Source: Bacteroidota bacterium (GTDB lineage: Bacteria > Bacteroidota > Ignavibacteria > Ignavibacteriales > Ignavibacteriaceae). From it: a stretch of DNA of 46,528 nucleotides. Under the pieces are notes generated by a model. The model saw only the letters and a list, made by a program, of their open reading frames with translations. It searched no databases and was not told the DNA's origin. Each line of letters starts with the position of its first letter. Position 1 is the stretch's first letter. The position numbers and the translations under genes were made by a program. Positions 13,166 through 22,966 of this stretch are shown one piece after another. The DNA lies in assembly GCA_021824565.1 (NCBI GenBank), contig JAKAKL010000052.1, positions 1 through 46,528 of the forward strand, in the 5' to 3' direction.

Positions 13166-13873
13166 ATGAGCGATAGTGAAACCATTAAGAGGGTATTGCT
13201 TTCAGTTCTCACCACCGGCAATAATTCAACAATGTTTAACCAATTCTATAAAATATGTATGAACTTTTCGGCAGCTTCTCTTTGTGTTGCCAGAAATAAA
13301 AGACAGCGTGAAGAGCTTACTTCCAGGCTTGATTGCAGCGTAATGGACTTAGCCTCGGAATGTATTGCCGACCTATTTGAAATAGTTGATGATAAATTTA
13401 TCCGGATCAATAATTATTTCGATAAAAAATTCCCGGACGGAATTCAACAAACTCATCAGGACATTATAAAGGTTCATCTTGCTGTTTTAATAAAATCAAA
13501 AACCAACCAGAGCCTTTCGGAACTTAAAGAGGATTTGGGAGATATTTATCCTAAGATAAAAAAATCTCTTGACACATTTTTAAGCAGGAAAAAAGATGAG
13601 TATCGTAAGTTTATCAAGGAAGGTGTCAAATACATTTCCTACGATCATTTGTGCGTTATAGATTTCAGCCTGCCGCAAATTGAAAAAAGATTTCTTGTTT
13701 CTAAAATGCTTCGCTTGCGCTTGAAGAATTGCTTTGTAGCAACTGTTATGCCGGAGGTGTTCAGAATTATAAGTAAGCAGGATGAATACTGCAAAGCGAT
13801 AAAAGAAAAGCTTCTGCTTGAGGCTCTGAAAGAATATTACGAAATAAAGATGAATGATTCACTTAAACAATGA
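13166..13873 (+). CDS. Unrecognised 235-residue protein, weakly sigma-factor-like
   Basis: I do not recognise a named family. The protein is soluble, mostly helical, with no signal peptide or membrane segment. Residues about 25-85 have a spacing that recalls sigma-70 region 2: an amphipathic helix (FYKICMNFSAASLCVARN), then DLASECIADLFEI followed by DDKFIRINNYF, compared with the family pattern 'DLvQEtFlraw...F.....'. A basic, helical second half follows (IKKSLDTFLSRKKDEYRKF), but I cannot see a convincing region 4 helix-turn-helix. It is the first of three same-strand genes; the next encodes an anti-sigma-like N-terminus, which is what makes the sigma reading worth stating. Real gene: high confidence; sigma role: low. 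Confidence 0.8.
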   Translation: MSDSETIKRVLLSVLTTGNNSTMFNQFYKICMNFSAASLCVARNKRQREELTSRLDCSVMDLASECIADLFEIVDDKFIRINNYFDKKFPDGIQQTHQDIIKVHLAVLIKSKTNQSLSELKEDLGDIYPKIKKSLDTFLSRKKDEYRKFIKEGVKYISYDHLCVIDFSLPQIEKRFLVSKMLRLRLKNCFVATVMPEVFRIISKQDEYCKAIKEKLLLEALKEYYEIKMNDSLKQ

Positions 13874-13935: not shown

Positions 13936-14754
13936 ATGAAAGAAATAACTGAAGAAGATCTGCACCTTTATTTTGTGAACAAGAGACTTCTTTCTCAAGA
14001 TAAAGTCAATGCCATTGAAACACTTGAAAGCAGCGATACTGGTTTCCGCGGCGAGCTTAAGGAGATTGAAGAGTACTATTCAGAATATAATAAAATTTCG
14101 ACAAGGAAATCAGTTGAATATATTTTGATGGAATATGAGTCAGGATCAGAGAATATTTCAAAGGATGATGATCAAGTTAAACTGGCAGCAATGCAAAGCG
14201 GCACCGAATTATCCCAGCAAAAGTATTTCAAAACCTTTTTGTCATCTGATAATTACCTGGTAACGAGAGTTTTCTATAATCCGTCTTTTCAGGAGTATGA
14301 TTTGTATATCATTTCCGAAAGCAATAAGATAGATGCTGCCTATGCTGTATTATATCTGGCAGAAATAGGAAAAGAGTTTGTGGCAAACTCAAAAGGCATT
14401 ATAAAAATTAAATCGAGATTTATAGATTTTCCCGGACAGATTTCAATCCGGCTACCTATTGCAAAATTGATTATTGGTATAAATGATAATGGGGCGCTGA
14501 TCCGGAATGACTTTTCCTTTAAGAATGATGAAAATGAATTTACACTTGGGCTTGAATTAACCGGAAATGTTCTTAATGGCGTAGTAAAAGATATGAAGAA
14601 TGACGCTTCTATAAAATATAATATTTTCCTTGTTCAAACTCTTGATGAAGAAATAATTATTCCTTTAGATATAAATGACAATAAATTTACATTGCAATTG
14701 CCGGCTGTAAAAGATTTTATAATTTCTGTTGTAGCTGGGAAACAAAATTTTTAG
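13936..14754 (+). CDS. Unrecognised 272-residue protein with anti-sigma-like N-terminus
   Basis: AAGGA lies 8 bases before the ATG. Residues 1-50 (EEDLHLYFVNKRLLSQDK then a helix ending ELKEIEEYY) resemble the N-terminal helices of anti-sigma factors, which read 'ee.lh.Yl.g.Ls......ve.hl..c..C...l'; the zinc Cys/His residues are missing. The rest (about 95-272) is beta-rich, for example KLIIGINDNGALIRNDFSF and IIIPLDINDNKFTLQLPA. No membrane segment is visible, so it is predicted cytoplasmic. The stop codon TAG ends on the first base of a GCCAC... repeat, so the native end may have been altered by its insertion. Function inferred only from context. Confidence 0.78.
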   Translation: MKEITEEDLHLYFVNKRLLSQDKVNAIETLESSDTGFRGELKEIEEYYSEYNKISTRKSVEYILMEYESGSENISKDDDQVKLAAMQSGTELSQQKYFKTFLSSDNYLVTRVFYNPSFQEYDLYIISESNKIDAAYAVLYLAEIGKEFVANSKGIIKIKSRFIDFPGQISIRLPIAKLIIGINDNGALIRNDFSFKNDENEFTLGLELTGNVLNGVVKDMKNDASIKYNIFLVQTLDEEIIIPLDINDNKFTLQLPAVKDFIISVVAGKQNF

Positions 14755-14840
14755 CCACAAATTAACACTAACCCTCTTTTCAGTCAGGCAGGTTTTCACA
14801 AAAAAAACTTTAAAAGCAAATTAGCGTAATTCGTATTAAT
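14754..14840. repeat. Degenerate copy of the GCCACGAATTAACACTAAT repeat
   Basis: GCCACAAATTAACACTAA (14754-14771) at the left and ATTAGCGTAATTCGTATT near 14820-14837 at the right form imperfect inverted ends. Between them lies CAGTCAGGCAGGTTTTCAC, which resembles half of the palindrome at 17032-17058. The unit starts exactly at the stop codon of the preceding gene and fills most of the gap before the 729-residue gene. Confidence 0.7.
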
Positions 14841-14879: not shown

Positions 14880-17069
14880 ATGGCTCTTTTTGAAGTTGAA
14901 TTGGCATCGCAGTGGTTAAGACATCAGTTGCAAAAGAATATTAGCGTTCATTTCAAATTTCTATCTGTTTGCCGCTTCTTCTCACTTTTCGTCGACAACG
15001 AAGATCAATCAAAATATATTTCTTATTATATTCAGTTTAAGGATGATATTGTTTCACTTATTAAAGATTTCCAGTTTAACTACTGCACGCCGGAAGAAAT
15101 TGACGAATTAAAAAATATTGTCGATAAAGTTTATACCGTATTTCCTACAGCAGATATTCACGAAAAAGAAAAGATTCATAGCGCTCTTGACAGCGCAAAA
15201 GGAAAAATACTCCGATTCTTAAACGAAGAGCCTTTGAGACAAAGTGAAAATGGCTGTTCAGAGAATTATTCAATAAACCAGGTGCTGATAGAAAATGATC
15301 CTAATTCCAAGCTTAATGCGGGCATAATTGAAAAGCTGAGAATTACTACTTCTAAGAATGAACTTCCCGGATATAAGGATAAGATTTCATTTGAAAATAA
15401 TTTTGAAGATAGAGATAATAGTATTGCCGGTATGATGGAAAAAGTAGTTGCGCTCTCCCGGAAAGAAGCTGAAGAAAAGATTAAGAATATCGGGTGCTAT
15501 AATTTCAACTTTTATTTCGAGCAGAGAGAATTTATATATACGGGCACTTCAATGGGACTTGGCGTTGCAGTACTAACTTTCAATTCAATACTGCGCGCTC
15601 AATTATATAAGTTATATTACAAATTTAGGAACGACGTAGTATTGGGCTGTGCGATTGATACGAACGGATTTTTAGTCCCTCTTGAGGATGATGTACTAAA
15701 GTTGAAATTAAAAACAGTTTTTTATTCTTCGTACAAAAAATTTGTAATCCCGGAACAAAATATTATTGAAGCAAGAAAGTATCTGGAAGAATTGAATTCT
15801 AAATACTCGAACAGGAAGCTTGAATTAATTCCTATTAAACATTACATGAATCTTTTTAAAAATCTGGATATTGTTGAAATCTGCAAACTTAAATTGAAAG
15901 AAAAACTTAAGGCTCATTATAATCAATATCATGTGATTACAAATTCAGCTTTAACATTATTAATCCTAGTTGTTCTGATTATTCTTGAAATCAAAGTAAT
16001 TATTCCTGAAATGGATCGGAATCCGGTCTATACTGAAATGAAAAATAATAGGTTTGTTGCTTTAAATAAATTTGGTAAAAATGTTTGGATGTCTGATGTT
16101 CTAAGTAGACAGGACATGGATACATTTAATAATTCGTCAATAATAGCAAAGCGGTTTATATTAACAGACATTGATAACGACGGCAGAAATGACATTTTGC
16201 TGCTTATAAACAAGGGAAATGATGTTATGGCTAAAAGAACAGTTTATTGCTTTAATGCCGATGGTTCGACAAAATGGAAAACTGTTTTCCCCGATAAGGA
16301 CTCTCTTTACGGAAATGATTATTGCAGTAATGATATAACAACAAGTTTCATGTATTTATTGGACAATAATAAGAAGAAGAATATTTTTGTTGTTTATAGA
16401 GTCTGCGTTCTCTACCCTACATATATTGCTAAACTTAATTCGCAAGGTAAAATAAATTCTGAATTTTATAATTCCGGAGCTATTGATCAAATAGTCGGCT
16501 GCAATTTTATAGACAGCAGTAAAGAAGAATTAATTTGCGGCGGAATTAATAATGATCTTAATAAATCAGGTGTGCTAATTGTATTTGATCCCGATTATGT
16601 TGCCGGCTGTTCGCCAGGATACCGCTATCCTAAGAATTATTCAAAAGGGCTGATGAAATATTATCTTCTGTTTCCTAAGACTGATGTCGGTAAGTTCAGC
16701 AACGTTGGAATAAACGAGGTTGACCTAATTGAGATTCACGGAGATAGGATTGTAGCTTATGTAAGTGAGATGGACACATTTATTGACAAGGATAATCAAG
16801 TGCAGCGGCAGAGATATGTTACTATTTATACGCTTGATAAATTGTTTAATGTTTTGCATGTGGAAACCAGCTCCGAGTTCGATGCAAGGTACCAGCAGCT
16901 TGTATATGAAGGAAAGCTTAAGCCCGTAAAAAATTGGAAAAAATATAAAGAGAAGCTAGCATCGCAGGTACGCTGGTGGGACGGCGACAAGTTTGTTAAT
17001 CATCCGGTAATGAACAAATATTATTTAGAGAGAACCTGCCTGTCGGCAAGGCAGGTTCGAGGAAATTAG
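14880..17069 (+). CDS. Membrane protein with Lon-protease-like domain and extracytoplasmic calcium-motif propeller region
   Basis: 729 residues; not a family I know. Residues 1-200 are helical. Residues about 205-330 align by eye with the proteolytic (S16) domain of Lon: TGTSMGLGVAVL against DGPSAGIAM, and IDTNGFLVPL..VLKLKL against ITLRGQVLPI..KEKLL. Ser224 and Lys274 fall where the Lon Ser-Lys dyad sits, while the usual TGE before that strand reads GCA. No ATPase domain is present. One membrane helix (about 354-376) follows a Lys-rich stretch, predicting N-terminus inside and C-terminus outside. The outer part has DIDNDGRND (430-438), an FG-GAP/VCBS calcium motif, and further beta-propeller-like repeats. 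The last ~15 residues and the stop come from repeat DNA (17032-17069). Proteolytic activity is inference. Confidence 0.82.
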   Translation: MALFEVELASQWLRHQLQKNISVHFKFLSVCRFFSLFVDNEDQSKYISYYIQFKDDIVSLIKDFQFNYCTPEEIDELKNIVDKVYTVFPTADIHEKEKIHSALDSAKGKILRFLNEEPLRQSENGCSENYSINQVLIENDPNSKLNAGIIEKLRITTSKNELPGYKDKISFENNFEDRDNSIAGMMEKVVALSRKEAEEKIKNIGCYNFNFYFEQREFIYTGTSMGLGVAVLTFNSILRAQLYKLYYKFRNDVVLGCAIDTNGFLVPLEDDVLKLKLKTVFYSSYKKFVIPEQNIIEARKYLEELNSKYSNRKLELIPIKHYMNLFKNLDIVEICKLKLKEKLKAHYNQYHVITNSALTLLILVVLIILEIKVIIPEMDRNPVYTEMKNNRFVALNKFGKNVWMSDVLSRQDMDTFNNSSIIAKRFILTDIDNDGRNDILLLINKGNDVMAKRTVYCFNADGSTKWKTVFPDKDSLYGNDYCSNDITTSFMYLLDNNKKKNIFVVYRVCVLYPTYIAKLNSQGKINSEFYNSGAIDQIVGCNFIDSSKEELICGGINNDLNKSGVLIVFDPDYVAGCSPGYRYPKNYSKGLMKYYLLFPKTDVGKFSNVGINEVDLIEIHGDRIVAYVSEMDTFIDKDNQVQRQRYVTIYTLDKLFNVLHVETSSEFDARYQQLVYEGKLKPVKNWKKYKEKLASQVRWWDGDKFVNHPVMNKYYLERTCLSARQVRGN
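17032..17058. repeat. 10-bp palindrome overlapping the 3' end of the Lon-like gene
   Basis: GAACCTGCCT (17032-17041) and AGGCAGGTTC (17049-17058) are perfect complements around a 7-base loop. It lies inside the reading frame, encoding the last residues (RTCLSARQVR). Similar CCTGCCTG...CAGGCAGG hairpins are frequent intergenic repeats in Bacteroidota genomes, from memory. Confidence 0.75.
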
Positions 17070-17083
17070 TGTTAATTCGCGGC
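17065..17083. repeat. Solo terminal repeat, right-end orientation
   Basis: ATTAGTGTTAATTCGCGGC matches the reverse complement of the family end GCCACGAATTAACACTAAT with one difference. Its TTAG supplies the TAG stop codon (17067-17069) of the upstream gene. Confidence 0.75.
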
Positions 17084-17093
17084 GGAAAAACAA

Positions 17094-17531
17094 GCCACGA
17101 ATTGACACTAATTATCACTAATTAAAAAATGGCAAACTTAATTTATAAGGATGAGTTTTATAAGATAATCGGGATGTGCATGGAAGTGCACCTGAATTTA
17201 GGTCCGGGTCTTCTGGAAATTGTTTACAAGGATGCGTTGGAATATGAATTTCAAATGAATAAAATTCCTTATGAACGAGAAAAAGAATTTTTAGTTGAAT
17301 ATAAAAACAAAATACTGTCGCATAAATTTTATGCGGACTTTGTTGTATATGAAAATATAATTTTGGAAGTAAAGGCAGTAAGAGGATTAGCCGAAGATTT
17401 CACAAAATTAGTTTTAAATTATATGGCTCTTGCAAAAAGTAAATTGGGAATATTAATTAACTTCGGAGAAGATTCACTCAAGTATAAAAGATTCGTGTTA
17501 TAATTCGAGTTAATTAGTGTTAATTATTGGC
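17094..17531. mobile_element. 438-bp unit with terminal inverted repeats carrying a GxxExxY gene
   Basis: The left end GCCACGAATTGACACTAATT (17094-17113) and the right end AATTAGTGTTAATTATTGGC (17512-17531) are inverted copies of the same sequence and enclose exactly one gene, with little extra DNA. The left end continues as ATCACTAATT, matching a second motif of the family. An empty 51-bp version lies at 18690-18740. No transposase is encoded, so any movement would depend on a factor supplied elsewhere. Confidence 0.6.
17129..17503 (+). CDS. GxxExxY family protein (PD-(D/E)xK nuclease-like fold)
   Basis: 124 residues, full length for the family. The name-giving motif is GLLEIVY (27-33). A nuclease-like core follows: Asp70 in FYADFVV and Glu80-Val-Lys82 in LEVKA, the arrangement of the PD-(D/E)xK superfamily. 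The biological role of the family is unknown. The ATG lies five bases after the left repeat end, with no Shine-Dalgarno sequence, and the stop is about 10 bases before the right repeat end, so gene and repeat look like one unit. Confidence 0.9.
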   Translation: MANLIYKDEFYKIIGMCMEVHLNLGPGLLEIVYKDALEYEFQMNKIPYEREKEFLVEYKNKILSHKFYADFVVYENIILEVKAVRGLAEDFTKLVLNYMALAKSKLGILINFGEDSLKYKRFVL

Positions 17532-17541
17532 TTAACTACCC

Positions 17542-17572
17542 GCCACTAATTAACACGAATTTTCACTAATTA
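17542..17572. repeat. Solo terminal repeat, left-end orientation
   Basis: Starts GCCACTAATTAACACGAAT and continues TTTCACTAATTA, matching the 30-base end of the GxxExxY unit closely. It lies 10 bases after the right end of that unit, with no matching partner end downstream before 18690. Confidence 0.7.
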
Positions 17573-17647: not shown

Positions 17648-17899
17648 ATGAATTTGAAATACGATTAGTTCAATTTATTATATGTTAAATTCAAATTGCC
17701 GTAAGCAATTTTCAATTTTTTTTTAACAATATTCAATCTACTTAAAGCTATTTTCAATTTAAATGAAAGTCTTTTCAATTTGTTTCGAGCTAAGTTCAAT
17801 TTAAAGAATGCTTAATTCAATTTGAAAGAAGCGTAGTACAATTTAAAGAATGCTTCTTCCAAATTGAAATGAGTGAGTTCCAATTTAAAATGAACATTC
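17648..17899. repeat. Tandem array: 12 degenerate copies of a 21-bp unit
   Basis: Units begin every 21 bases (17669, 17690, 17711, 17732, 17753, 17774, 17795, 17816, 17837, 17858, 17879; a weaker first copy at 17648). The core is TTCAATTTAAAGAA followed by a variable 7 bases often containing GCTTA. Register is kept through all copies. All frames but one are broken by stops, so it is not a coding heptad repeat. The A/T tracts recur every two helical turns, so the DNA may be bent. No spacers of CRISPR type are present. Confidence 0.85.
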
Positions 17900-18689: not shown

Positions 18690-18740
18690 GCCACGAATAT
18701 TCACGAATTGAATTAGTGAAAATTAGTGTTAATTCGTGGC
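18690..18740. repeat. 51-bp empty inverted-repeat unit (MITE-like)
   Basis: GCCACGAAT (18690-18698) and ATTCGTGGC (18732-18740) are perfect inverted ends. The right half, read in reverse, gives GCCACGAATTAACACTAAT then TTTCACTAATT, nearly identical to the left end of the GxxExxY unit at 17094. It begins 7 bases after the stop codon of the FN3 gene. Confidence 0.75.
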
Positions 18741-21134: not shown

Positions 21135-21968
21135 ATGAAAAAAATATTTTTACTTTTCGTTTTAGTTGCAGCAATAACAGCAACTCTATCTGCACGTATT
21201 ATTAAGGTAGACATAAACGGTTCAGGGCAATTTACTTCTATAAACACAGCAGTTATAAATGCTGTTGCAGGCGATACTATAAAAGTTTTACCCGGCTCTT
21301 ATTTTGAACAGGTAACGATTAATAAAAATGTTGTTGTTATAGGATCAGGATTTGAAACTACAATGATAAATAGTAATGTAAATCCTACAGTTGTTATTAG
21401 TGCTGGCAAAATTCTGTGGTTCAATATTTCTTCAGCTTCAGGAGATGGAATTCAAGTTTCAGGCACAAGTGCGATTATTTCAAATTGTGTAATAAGAGGC
21501 TGCATGATTAATGGGATTAATGGACTGACAGGTGGAAGTATCACCACAGTTATAAATTGTGTGCTGATGAATGATGGTAACGATGGAATAATAGCCCAAA
21601 ATGGAGCTATAATTAATGCTACGAATTGTATTGCTTGGAATTGCGGTCTTGGGTATTTCACGAAAAATGGAGGAGTAGTTAACATTTCGTATTGCGACGG
21701 GTCTACTTATTTTACGAATGGGAATCAATCTGGATTGATAAATCTTGATCCACAATTTGTGTCCTCTTCAGATTTCCATATTTCTCAAGGCTCACCTTGC
21801 TGGGATAAAGGTAATCCTTCTTTGCTTGATCCGGATGGTTCGCAAAGCGACATGGGTTATTTTGGCGGACCGGATTGTCCTATTTATCCAGTTGTAAAAA
21901 GTGTAAAAATAATTCCGCAGCAAGACGGCTCAATTCAAATACAGGCAACCGGCGTTGCTAATTATTAA
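21135..21968 (+). CDS. Exported right-handed beta-helix protein (pectate-lyase-like fold)
   Basis: 277 residues with a signal peptide ending LSA. The start of the mature part (INTAVINAVAGDTIKVLPG.Y.E) is the classic opening of DUF1565/pectin-lyase-like beta-helix proteins, followed by short turns such as GDGIQVSGTSAIISNCVIRG and GNDGIIAQNGAIINATNC. It ends with the PQF...SPCWDKGNP cap seen in such proteins. Catalytic residues of real polysaccharide lyases are not evident. AAGGAG precedes the ATG. It has no T9SS domain of its own. Confidence 0.85.
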   Translation: MKKIFLLFVLVAAITATLSARIIKVDINGSGQFTSINTAVINAVAGDTIKVLPGSYFEQVTINKNVVVIGSGFETTMINSNVNPTVVISAGKILWFNISSASGDGIQVSGTSAIISNCVIRGCMINGINGLTGGSITTVINCVLMNDGNDGIIAQNGAIINATNCIAWNCGLGYFTKNGGVVNISYCDGSTYFTNGNQSGLINLDPQFVSSSDFHISQGSPCWDKGNPSLLDPDGSQSDMGYFGGPDCPIYPVVKSVKIIPQQDGSIQIQATGVANY

Positions 21969-21979
21969 TCGGAGGAATT

Positions 21980-22966
21980 ATGAAAACAATATTTATCCTT
22001 CTTTTAATTTCTATAAATTTATTTGCTCAAAACCAGCCGCGCGACCAAAACATTGTTGCCGGAGAATATTTTCTTAATCAAGATCCGGGCGAAGGAAATG
22101 GGACTCCATTAAACAGCGCTTATGGTTTTGCAACCGCAGATGTAATTATTAATTCTGTCTCAATTAACAATGTAGTTTACATTCGTTTCAAAAGCTCAAA
22201 CGGTAAATGGGGACCGCCGAGATCAATTAAAAATATTTACCCTCCTCCTGCAAGTGGTTCTATAATCCAGTCTGGAGAATATTTTCTTAATTCTGATCCG
22301 GGTTTAGGCAGCGCAACAAAATTTAATTTTGACTACAATGGCAGCGCCGGCATATCCTCTGTTAATGCTAATCGTAATGATAAAATATTTTTGAGAGCTA
22401 AAGATTCTTTTGGGAGATGGAGTGATGCTGTTTGTATAAATTACAGATATAAAAATTTAATCGATGCAGAATATAAATTAAAATTCGTTGGGGGCAGTTC
22501 AAGCGCATGGCAGAAACTCAATATTCAAAACCAAACCTCGCCTTCTGCATTTTTCACGGCACAATCTGGTTCAATTACAAATCAAAATACAATTGACACA
22601 TTGTTCATTCATTTTCAAAGCGATGATTTTATTTGGGGAACAGTGCAGAAATATGCATGGAAGGATATTACAGATATCGAGGAAATTAAATCCAATCTTC
22701 CGAAAGAATTTTATTTATCTCAAAATTATCCCAATCCGTTTAATCCTTCAACCAAGATTAGATTTGATATTCCTAAAACATCTTTCGTAAGGCTTGCTAT
22801 TTATGATATTCTTGGAAGGGAAGTATCTGTTCTTATCAATAAGGAAATGAAACCTGGAAGCTATGAGGCAACGTTTGATGGGAAAGAATTGGCGAGCGGA
22901 ATATATTTCTATAAATTGCAGACGGTAAACTTTATCTCAACTAAAAAATTAGTTTTGCTGAAGTAA
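21980..22966 (+). CDS. T9SS-sorted surface protein with duplicated GEYFLN repeats
   Basis: 328 residues with a signal peptide (to about residue 17, FAQ). Two clear internal repeats begin GEYFLNQDPGEGNGT and GEYFLNSDPGLGSAT, each running on to a '...R.K.S.G.W' strand; a third start (DAEYKL) may be a fragment. The last ~80 residues are a T9SS type A sorting domain (NYPNPFNPSTKIRFDIP, then LGREV, GIYFYKL, KKLVLLK), which directs passage through the outer membrane and surface attachment. GGAGG precedes the ATG. It is the last gene before a strong terminator. Confidence 0.93.
   Translation: MKTIFILLLISINLFAQNQPRDQNIVAGEYFLNQDPGEGNGTPLNSAYGFATADVIINSVSINNVVYIRFKSSNGKWGPPRSIKNIYPPPASGSIIQSGEYFLNSDPGLGSATKFNFDYNGSAGISSVNANRNDKIFLRAKDSFGRWSDAVCINYRYKNLIDAEYKLKFVGGSSSAWQKLNIQNQTSPSAFFTAQSGSITNQNTIDTLFIHFQSDDFIWGTVQKYAWKDITDIEEIKSNLPKEFYLSQNYPNPFNPSTKIRFDIPKTSFVRLAIYDILGREVSVLINKEMKPGSYEATFDGKELASGIYFYKLQTVNFISTKKLVLLK

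Follow-up and report, generated by a model that had tools for sequence, protein, structure and literature searches.

The window analysed here is the whole 46,528-nucleotide contig JAKAKL010000052.1 of a Bacteroidota bacterium (Ignavibacteriaceae). It carries a three-gene cassette, the third gene of which encodes a 729-residue protein combining a Lon-type peptidase domain with a predicted membrane helix and a predicted outer propeller-like module. On balance, we favor the reading that this protein (gene 3, P0001) is a receptor-protease that cuts an anti-sigma-like protein encoded by gene 2 (P0002), thereby freeing a sigma-like protein encoded by gene 1 (P0003). The features on which this reading draws are as follows, with all coordinates given as window positions.

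13166..13873, plus strand: gene 1 (P0003), 235 residues, helical; its family has no Pfam model, and it occupies the place usual for a sigma-factor gene (gene order, family search)
13936..14754, plus strand: gene 2 (P0002), 272 residues, soluble, its C-terminal part rich in beta structure; putative relative of ZAS anti-sigma factors, but zinc-less (profile, HHalign)
14182..14190, plus strand: Leu83-Ala84-Ala85 of gene 2 (LAA, nearly invariant), which may be a cut site or a degron (column conservation)
14880..17069, plus strand: gene 3 (P0001), 729 residues, proposed transmembrane receptor-protease (open reading frame, homologue alignment, model)
14880..15239, plus strand: residues 1–120 of gene 3, N-terminal helical part (AlphaFold model)
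15252..15893, plus strand: residues 125–338 of gene 3, Lon (S16)-type domain (profile and structure matches)
15549..15551, plus strand: Ser224 of gene 3, predicted catalytic serine (conservation, alignment to Lon)
15705..15707, plus strand: Lys276 of gene 3, and not Lys274, predicted catalytic lysine (conservation, alignment to Lon)
15936..16007, plus strand: residues 353–376 of gene 3, predicted membrane helix (model, hydrophobicity)
16014..17066, plus strand: residues 379–729 of gene 3, predicted outer propeller-like module (model, FG-GAP in relatives)
16167..16193, plus strand: DIDNDGRND (residues 430–438 of gene 3), calcium-type DxDxDG motif (sequence, conservation)

In the mechanism that we propose, the outer propeller-like domain of gene 3 would sense an external cue, while its single helix would span the membrane and place a Ser224-Lys276 Lon-type protease, lacking an ATPase, in the cytoplasm. 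Activation, perhaps through clustering as in the Lon protease CalpL (see below), would lead to a limited cut in the gene 2 protein. The cut might fall near LAA, where a sigma-binding N-terminal part gives way to the C-terminal beta part. A protease such as ClpXP would next remove what is left of the N-terminal part and so release the gene 1 protein.

A Lon-type domain with a conserved serine-lysine pair

An earlier, sequence-only reading of this DNA had proposed the open reading frame at 14880–17069, which is real, and had aligned residues 205–330 of its product with the Lon proteolytic domain. Searched alone, P0001 has no significant match in Pfam and no match at E ≤ 1 in NCBIfam, and a Lon_C search of its own genome hit four places, the P0001 locus not among them. 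We therefore turned to a profile (A5) of the Lon region in 23 sequences, namely P0001 and 22 relatives that are 12–65% identical to it. Compared with the PDB, this profile matched 47 sequences at E ≤ 10, and all 21 of those at E ≤ 0.001 are Lon or Lon-like peptidases, the best being A. fulgidus Lon (E = 5.3e-10). Lon_C is matched singly by 6 of the 23 members at E ≤ 1 (best 9.6e-6), again without P0001, and the full protein of one relative, L055, lies barely above the Pfam cut-off for that family (21.2 vs 21.1 bits).

Structure comparison points the same way. We searched with an AlphaFold model of P0001 (mean pLDDT 86.2, pTM 0.56) using Foldseek, and the best 50 of 165 rows at E ≤ 0.001 were all Lon. 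VIA-align gave Z scores of up to 20.0 against Lon; for B. subtilis LonBA, Z was 18.6, with a root-mean-square deviation (rmsd) of 2.2 over 176 residues. The Lon kinship is more than chance; it emerges from the family profile and the fold rather than from P0001's own sequence. These comparisons bear out the Lon assignment and widen it: residues from about 125 to 338 have the Lon (S16) fold in the model and are homologous to Lon. Among the best 50 VIA-align rows, 44 were Lon and 6 were RadA or BrxL (Z 16.3–17.0), and one RadA entry bears the title 'Protease domain of RadA'. RadA and BrxL have Lon folds that are not known to work as proteases, and their presence among the matches means that the fold alone is no proof of protease activity.

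Only four columns in the Lon region of the 23-row alignment are invariant: Gly222, Ser224, Lys276 and Ser283. We then pooled the loci to obtain 73 distinct Lon regions, P0001 included, of which 20 had been used in building the profile and 53 had not. Ser224 and Lys276 are present in 73/73 of these, and Gly222 and Ser283 in 72/73. When aligned with A. fulgidus Lon, Ser224 and Lys276 fall on the conserved serine and lysine of that enzyme. The sequence-only reading had likewise put the catalytic serine at Ser224, and the conservation of this residue (23/23 and 73/73) agrees. For the lysine, it had counted seven residues from a proline and arrived at Lys274. That column is Lys in just 13/73 regions, which rules out Lys274, and the downstream I-P-E motif together with conservation leads us to Lys276. 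Ser224-Lys276 is a conserved Lon-type dyad and is predicted to be catalytic. Ser283 (15726–15728) lies seven residues past Lys276. We looked for three domains that might accompany such a protease: neither AAA+ ATPase, PDZ nor SAVED gave a match in P0001 at E ≤ 1 in Pfam or NCBIfam.

Membrane helix, outer module and N-terminal helices

P0001 contains a single strongly hydrophobic stretch (19-residue windows starting at 349–362, the best at 357), which sits in a helix predicted by the AlphaFold model at 339–378 and has a Lys-rich N-terminal flank. According to the positive-inside rule, a basic flank marks the cytoplasmic side of a membrane, and hence we assign the Lon side to the cytoplasm. The Lon domain is thus probably inside, and the probable sensor outside, the membrane helix. 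In the model, residues 379–729 are mainly strands, with the DxDxDG motif at 430, and D430 is nearly invariant in alignment A3. A membrane helix with a basic inner flank and a DIDNDGRND motif beyond it had both been noted from the sequence, and both are present. The outer propeller claimed at the same time is weakly supported: P0001 itself remains below the Pfam cut-off for FG-GAP (E = 0.064), although the ZAS-type relative L050 passes it. As to the broader claim of an ATP-independent sensor-protease, the Lon-type Ser/Lys domain, the lack of a detected AAA+ or PDZ domain and the probable inside/outside layout are in its favor, with the lysine corrected from 274 to 276.

The outer module recurs without Lon and Lon without the propeller. 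Other relatives (L049–L051 and others) join the outer module to ZAS-like N-termini. Conversely, 21 of the 73 Lon regions belong to proteins without a propeller match, 17 of which are 1018–1058 residues long. L055, the one such protein scanned over its whole length, contains a Laminin_G_3 domain (E = 3.6e-18). By these domain matches, the outer modules are exchangeable, being either propeller or LamG-type. Two further genes, in records titled Spirochaetes and Aminicenantes, couple an outer-module match to an N-terminus that by eye looks like a helix-turn-helix (L081:2399–3721, 441 residues; L082:362–1705, 448 residues).

Residues 1–120 are helices in the model and, to our knowledge, match no family. 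Several VIA alignments to human LONP1 begin at model residue 70 (chain about 662). Residues 70–120, a part of these N-terminal helices, may correspond to the helical part of Lon ahead of its protease domain.

Gene order and the kinship of gene 2

Four copies of gene 3 are found in the genome, one in the window and the others on C54 (66% identity), C131 (24%) and C148 (23%), and the order gene 1-gene 2-gene 3 is kept in 4/4. Matches to P0001 occur in 64 of 197 genomes of the class, some spanning the outer half or the Lon part only. A search with eight homologues as queries returned 25 named relatives, 22 of them with Ignavibacteria/Melioribacter or Bacteroidetes as title. Ectothiorhodospiraceae (L066; probably a wrong label), Spirochaetes and Aminicenantes are the titles of the remaining three.

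To extend the comparison, we conducted a census of 164 stretches, consisting of 118 fetched gene 1 loci, the window and earlier loci, which together hold 141 distinct gene 1 genes. In 46 of the 141, the gene 2 behind gene 1 carries the membrane-propeller module as a fusion, and none of these loci (0/46) has a Lon gene within 2.5 kb. In 76 of the 141, a free soluble gene follows, and a Lon gene lies within 2.5 kb in 54/76 (50 downstream, 4 upstream). Six of the remaining genes are followed by a membrane-helix gene without a propeller and one by the Lon gene directly; 12 have no called neighbor, with a Lon gene near 3 of these. One caveat here is that the free class was defined by the next same-strand soluble open reading frame, and hence the 76 include a few genes other than gene 2 (L073, L159, L248). 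At some GC-rich loci (L194, L255), gene 2 is masked by an opposite reading frame.

Variants of the cassette were also seen. At four loci (L249, L252, L213, L056), a single gene 2 precedes a tandem array of two or three receptor genes of the Lon type, and at L059:6001–8152 the receptor gene is broken into two overlapping frames, reflecting a frameshift or an assembly error.

What kind of protein is gene 2? No membrane helix was found in P0002 in a hydrophobicity scan. For the family, we built a zinc-type profile (A7) from 75 of 79 N-termini, chosen by the pattern His-x2-4-Cys-x2-Cys. The top PDB match of this profile is RsiW (E = 4.6e-5); the next rows are OSTM1 (0.027), which is unrelated, 3hug (0.09), which we take to be RslA, and ChrR (1.5). 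At E ≤ 1, zf-HC2 is matched by 40 of the 75 N-termini (best 3e-4). We then compared the zinc-type profile with the 30 copies that lack the pattern and stand beside a Lon gene, the window's included. HHalign gave 97.4% (E = 1.6e-11 for one comparison), against 1.4% in the reversed control, and the kinship of P0002 accordingly applies through this group of 30 rather than to P0002 singly. An extra histidine at position 5, outside the selection pattern, is at least 90% conserved and stands 27 residues ahead of the next His. In RsiW, the zinc ligands are C3-H30-C34-C37, with the same 27-residue spacing from C3 to H30 (PMC5358783). Profile comparison thus reveals kinship between the gene 2 family and ZAS anti-sigma factors, the window copy being a zinc-less member.

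Among the 76 free neighbors, the three most conserved columns are Leu, Ala and Ala (63, 63 and 74 rows), and in the 54 beside a Lon gene these columns count 49, 49 and 54. The strict LAA string is found in 46 of the 54, whereas composition shuffles gave 5.0 on average. The motif separates the ZAS-like part from the C-terminal, beta-looking part. A C-terminal Ala-Ala is the sort of end that ClpXP takes. A cut at LAA may leave such a degron, or LAA may equally be structural.

Evidence against the proposed pathway, and alternatives

Several results weigh against this reading of the cassette, and they bear on gene 1, on gene 2 and on the census. The gene 1 family is represented in 76 of the 197 genomes of the class and in 53 of the 395 from the phylum. 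P0003 lacks the C-terminal ~100 residues of its longer relatives. Complete Pfam lists for ten members contain weak matches only and no Sigma70 family. For 129 members, the 25 listed of 112 matched families, each with one or two members, include no Sigma70 either. A family profile from alignment A6 (129 of the 138 gene 1 proteins) found nothing significant in the PDB. HHalign against the genome's extracytoplasmic function (ECF) sigma factors gave 0.7% in local mode, with both reversed controls at 3.4%, and a non-significant 2.4% vs 0.2% reversed in global mode; the positive control gave 100%. Neither Pfam, the PDB profile nor HHalign supports gene 1 as an ordinary ECF factor.

Fold comparison gives a faint signal. 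An AlphaFold model of a 342-residue gene 1 relative (pLDDT 84.6, pTM 0.50) had a best Foldseek match of only E = 1.2. In VIA-align, sigma factors make up 5 of its 8 best rows: SigD (Z 7.8, 160 aligned, rmsd 20.9), SigB (Z 6.4, 163 aligned, rmsd 25.8), FliA (Z 6.3, 143 aligned, rmsd 11.4), sigmaS (Z 5.9, 160 aligned, rmsd 22.7) and sigma32 (Z 5.7, 160 aligned, rmsd 24.6), where the rows named RPSD and RPSB are presumably sigma-D and sigma-B. These rows span two domains at an rmsd of 11–26 Å, which is weak for a helical protein. Residues 8–126 alone align with sigmaA at an rmsd of 3.2 (91 aligned, Z 5.0), and the C-terminal part aligns with lambda Q (Z 7.2, rmsd 3.4 over 98). Lambda Q and phycocyanin (Z 5.7) stand among the sigma rows, and the phycocyanin score shows that such Z values are weak for helical proteins.

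The place of gene 1 before a ZAS-type gene, plus this slight fold likeness, weakly suggests a very diverged sigma-like factor. It is possible, though we hold it with some doubt, that gene 1 is instead another helical partner of gene 2 and exerts no direct control over RNA polymerase. The lack of sequence support, the fold results and the missing C-terminal part of the window copy would fit such a partner. By contrast, ZAS domains are known sigma binders (RsiW), gene 1 lies directly upstream of fused and free gene 2 alike, and sigma factors are prominent in the best structural rows. A non-sigma gene 1 would be compatible with an active receptor-protease.

For gene 2 and the census, the adverse points are these. 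P0002 is without the zinc ligands His-x3-Cys-x2-Cys. For 22 of the 76 free neighbors, a Lon gene is absent within 2.5 kb; the sequence ends less than 2.5 kb downstream of gene 1 in just 5 of these cases, and most of the others have room. The strict LAA string also occurs in 12 of these 22 copies and in 14 of the 46 fused proteins (first 160 residues). Fisher's test on the fused/free contrast gives p = 7e-17, but the rows are related, so this value means little and was not used as a statistic. On a gene 1 tree (138 rows of at least 190 residues, 111 labelled), 3 changes are required to explain the fused state, of which the starred branches force 1, and an independent-pairs test on the tree is powerless (p = 1). 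Few evolutionary events lie behind the contrast.

If gene 3 is an active Lon-type protease, its substrate could be something other than gene 2, such as the product of gene 1 or membrane proteins that have been damaged, gene 2 then acting as a regulator or adaptor. The 22 free neighbors without a nearby Lon gene favor this alternative, as does the fact that gene 2 is proposed as substrate from its position and the LAA motif only. We nevertheless regard it as unlikely, given the recurrent gene order, the anti-sigma kinship of gene 2 and the precedent of CalpL. Moreover, the 22 include the five near a sequence end, two fused loci with a small intervening reading frame (L073, L159) and one whose neighbor seems unrelated and resembles another regulator (L248), while G180 and G119 do have a P0001 homologue that covers the Lon region, ~6–7 kb off. 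That the Lon fold is a non-proteolytic domain, through which the receptor controls gene 2 by binding, is improbable: the RadA and BrxL matches and the fact that Lon normally acts as an ATP-driven hexamer speak for it, but Ser224 and Lys276 are kept in every one of the Lon regions compared, though just four columns are invariant in the 23-row alignment.

Neighboring features

A quick look at the stretches upstream of gene 1 in ten loci, made without a motif search, revealed no common element. At four other loci (L231, L233, L234, L236), gene 1 relatives precede a multi-helix membrane protein, behind which comes a P-loop-looking protein; neither gene 2 nor Lon was matched nearby.

Within the window, a CACTAATTAACACTAATT-like repeat has 11 matches with up to 3 mismatches, compared to 0.93 expected in shuffles. 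The matches lie at 17064–17571 and 18692–18738 (near 18.7 kb), and also at 14756–14773, and they flank both sides of a PDDEXK_3 gene at 17129–17503. This region may be a repeat-associated insert. Irregular caatttaaa-like repeat units are visible by eye at 17690–17890, where no gene is called.

Further downstream are a secreted protein that looks like a beta-helix (21135–21968) and a protein with a type IX secretion system (T9SS)-type tail (21980–22966), both recognized by eye. Homologues of both are found near related cassettes at L058, L059, L154 and L155, and beta-helix homologues also at L047/L066 and L213. As raw counts, the beta-helix protein recurs in 8 of the 164 stretches (without a control) and the T9SS-tailed protein in 61 of 164 (without a control for gene commonness). 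It is possible that these neighbors are cassette cargo.

Comparison with known systems

The sequence-only reading knew of no described family with this layout, and none was found among the papers listed by literature searches that left out most subscription journals; no membrane-spanning Lon receptor with an anti-sigma partner was among them. It overlooked gene 2, the gene 1 context, the exchangeable outer modules and the precedent of CalpL-CalpT-CalpS. Taking these together, we tentatively raise a stronger claim, less probable than the reading with which we opened: that gene 3 represents an undescribed class of single-pass receptors whose outer sensors, propeller or LamG-type, can be swapped and whose Lon protease works in the cytoplasm without ATP, and which would cut a ZAS-type anti-sigma factor at LAA to create a degron and free a sigma family that has gone unrecognized. 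If this is true, a protease would be the direct signaling end of a bacterial membrane receptor, and the gene 1 family, which 76 of the 197 class genomes carry, may be sigma factors overlooked by present models.

ATP-dependent Lon enzymes (LonA, LonB, LonBA) share the proteolytic fold and the Ser-Lys dyad. They differ from P0001, in which no AAA+ was detected and which has ~120 helical N-terminal residues and, on the C-terminal side, a predicted membrane helix that leads to the outer module. PDZ-Lon proteins are of the YlbL type, and they differ in that no PDZ was detected in P0001.

The closest parallel is the type III CRISPR system CalpL-CalpT-CalpS, in which CalpL, a Lon protease, cleaves CalpT, an anti-sigma factor, and the sigma factor CalpS is released (PMC11417357, PMC12751052, PMC11229360). 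For CalpT, it has been suggested that the sigma factor is freed through a ClpX/P degron step (PMC11417357). Both systems would comprise a sensor-bearing Lon-type protease, an anti-sigma substrate and a sigma factor, a trio suggested here by gene order. CalpL is encoded with an anti-sigma and a sigma factor, while in the window the anti-sigma kinship of gene 2 is supported and the sigma identity of gene 1 weakly so. A difference is that here a predicted membrane helix leads to an outer propeller or LamG-type module. Judged by its domains, gene 3 is neither a CalpL, since SAVED was not found in it, nor an ATP-dependent Lon, since AAA+ was not found either. CalpL is absent from the matches listed in the A5 PDB, Foldseek and VIA searches, which does not exclude kinship.

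Craspase (Csx29-Csx30-CASP-sigma) is alike in that a protease cuts a sigma-binding inhibitor (PMC10028731). There, however, a CHAT protease is switched on by target RNA, with no membrane receptor.

The RsiW/PrsW/RasP and RseA/DegS/RseP systems are alike in passing an external signal on through stepwise destruction of an anti-sigma factor, and in E. coli the RseP cut exposes a degron in RseA, with ClpXP cleavage following (PMC10202637, PMC5358783 for the systems and PMC10202637 for RseA). The likeness to RsiW extends to gene 2, whose family is related to it. In those systems, the anti-sigma factor spans the membrane and is cut by separate proteases, whereas here gene 2 is without a membrane helix and the protease itself would bear the helix and the outer module. 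If the proposed pathway holds, one protein does what regulated intramembrane proteolysis does with several. The wiring of CalpL-CalpT-CalpS would then have an outside-sensing chromosomal counterpart, which bears on the origin of defense modules.

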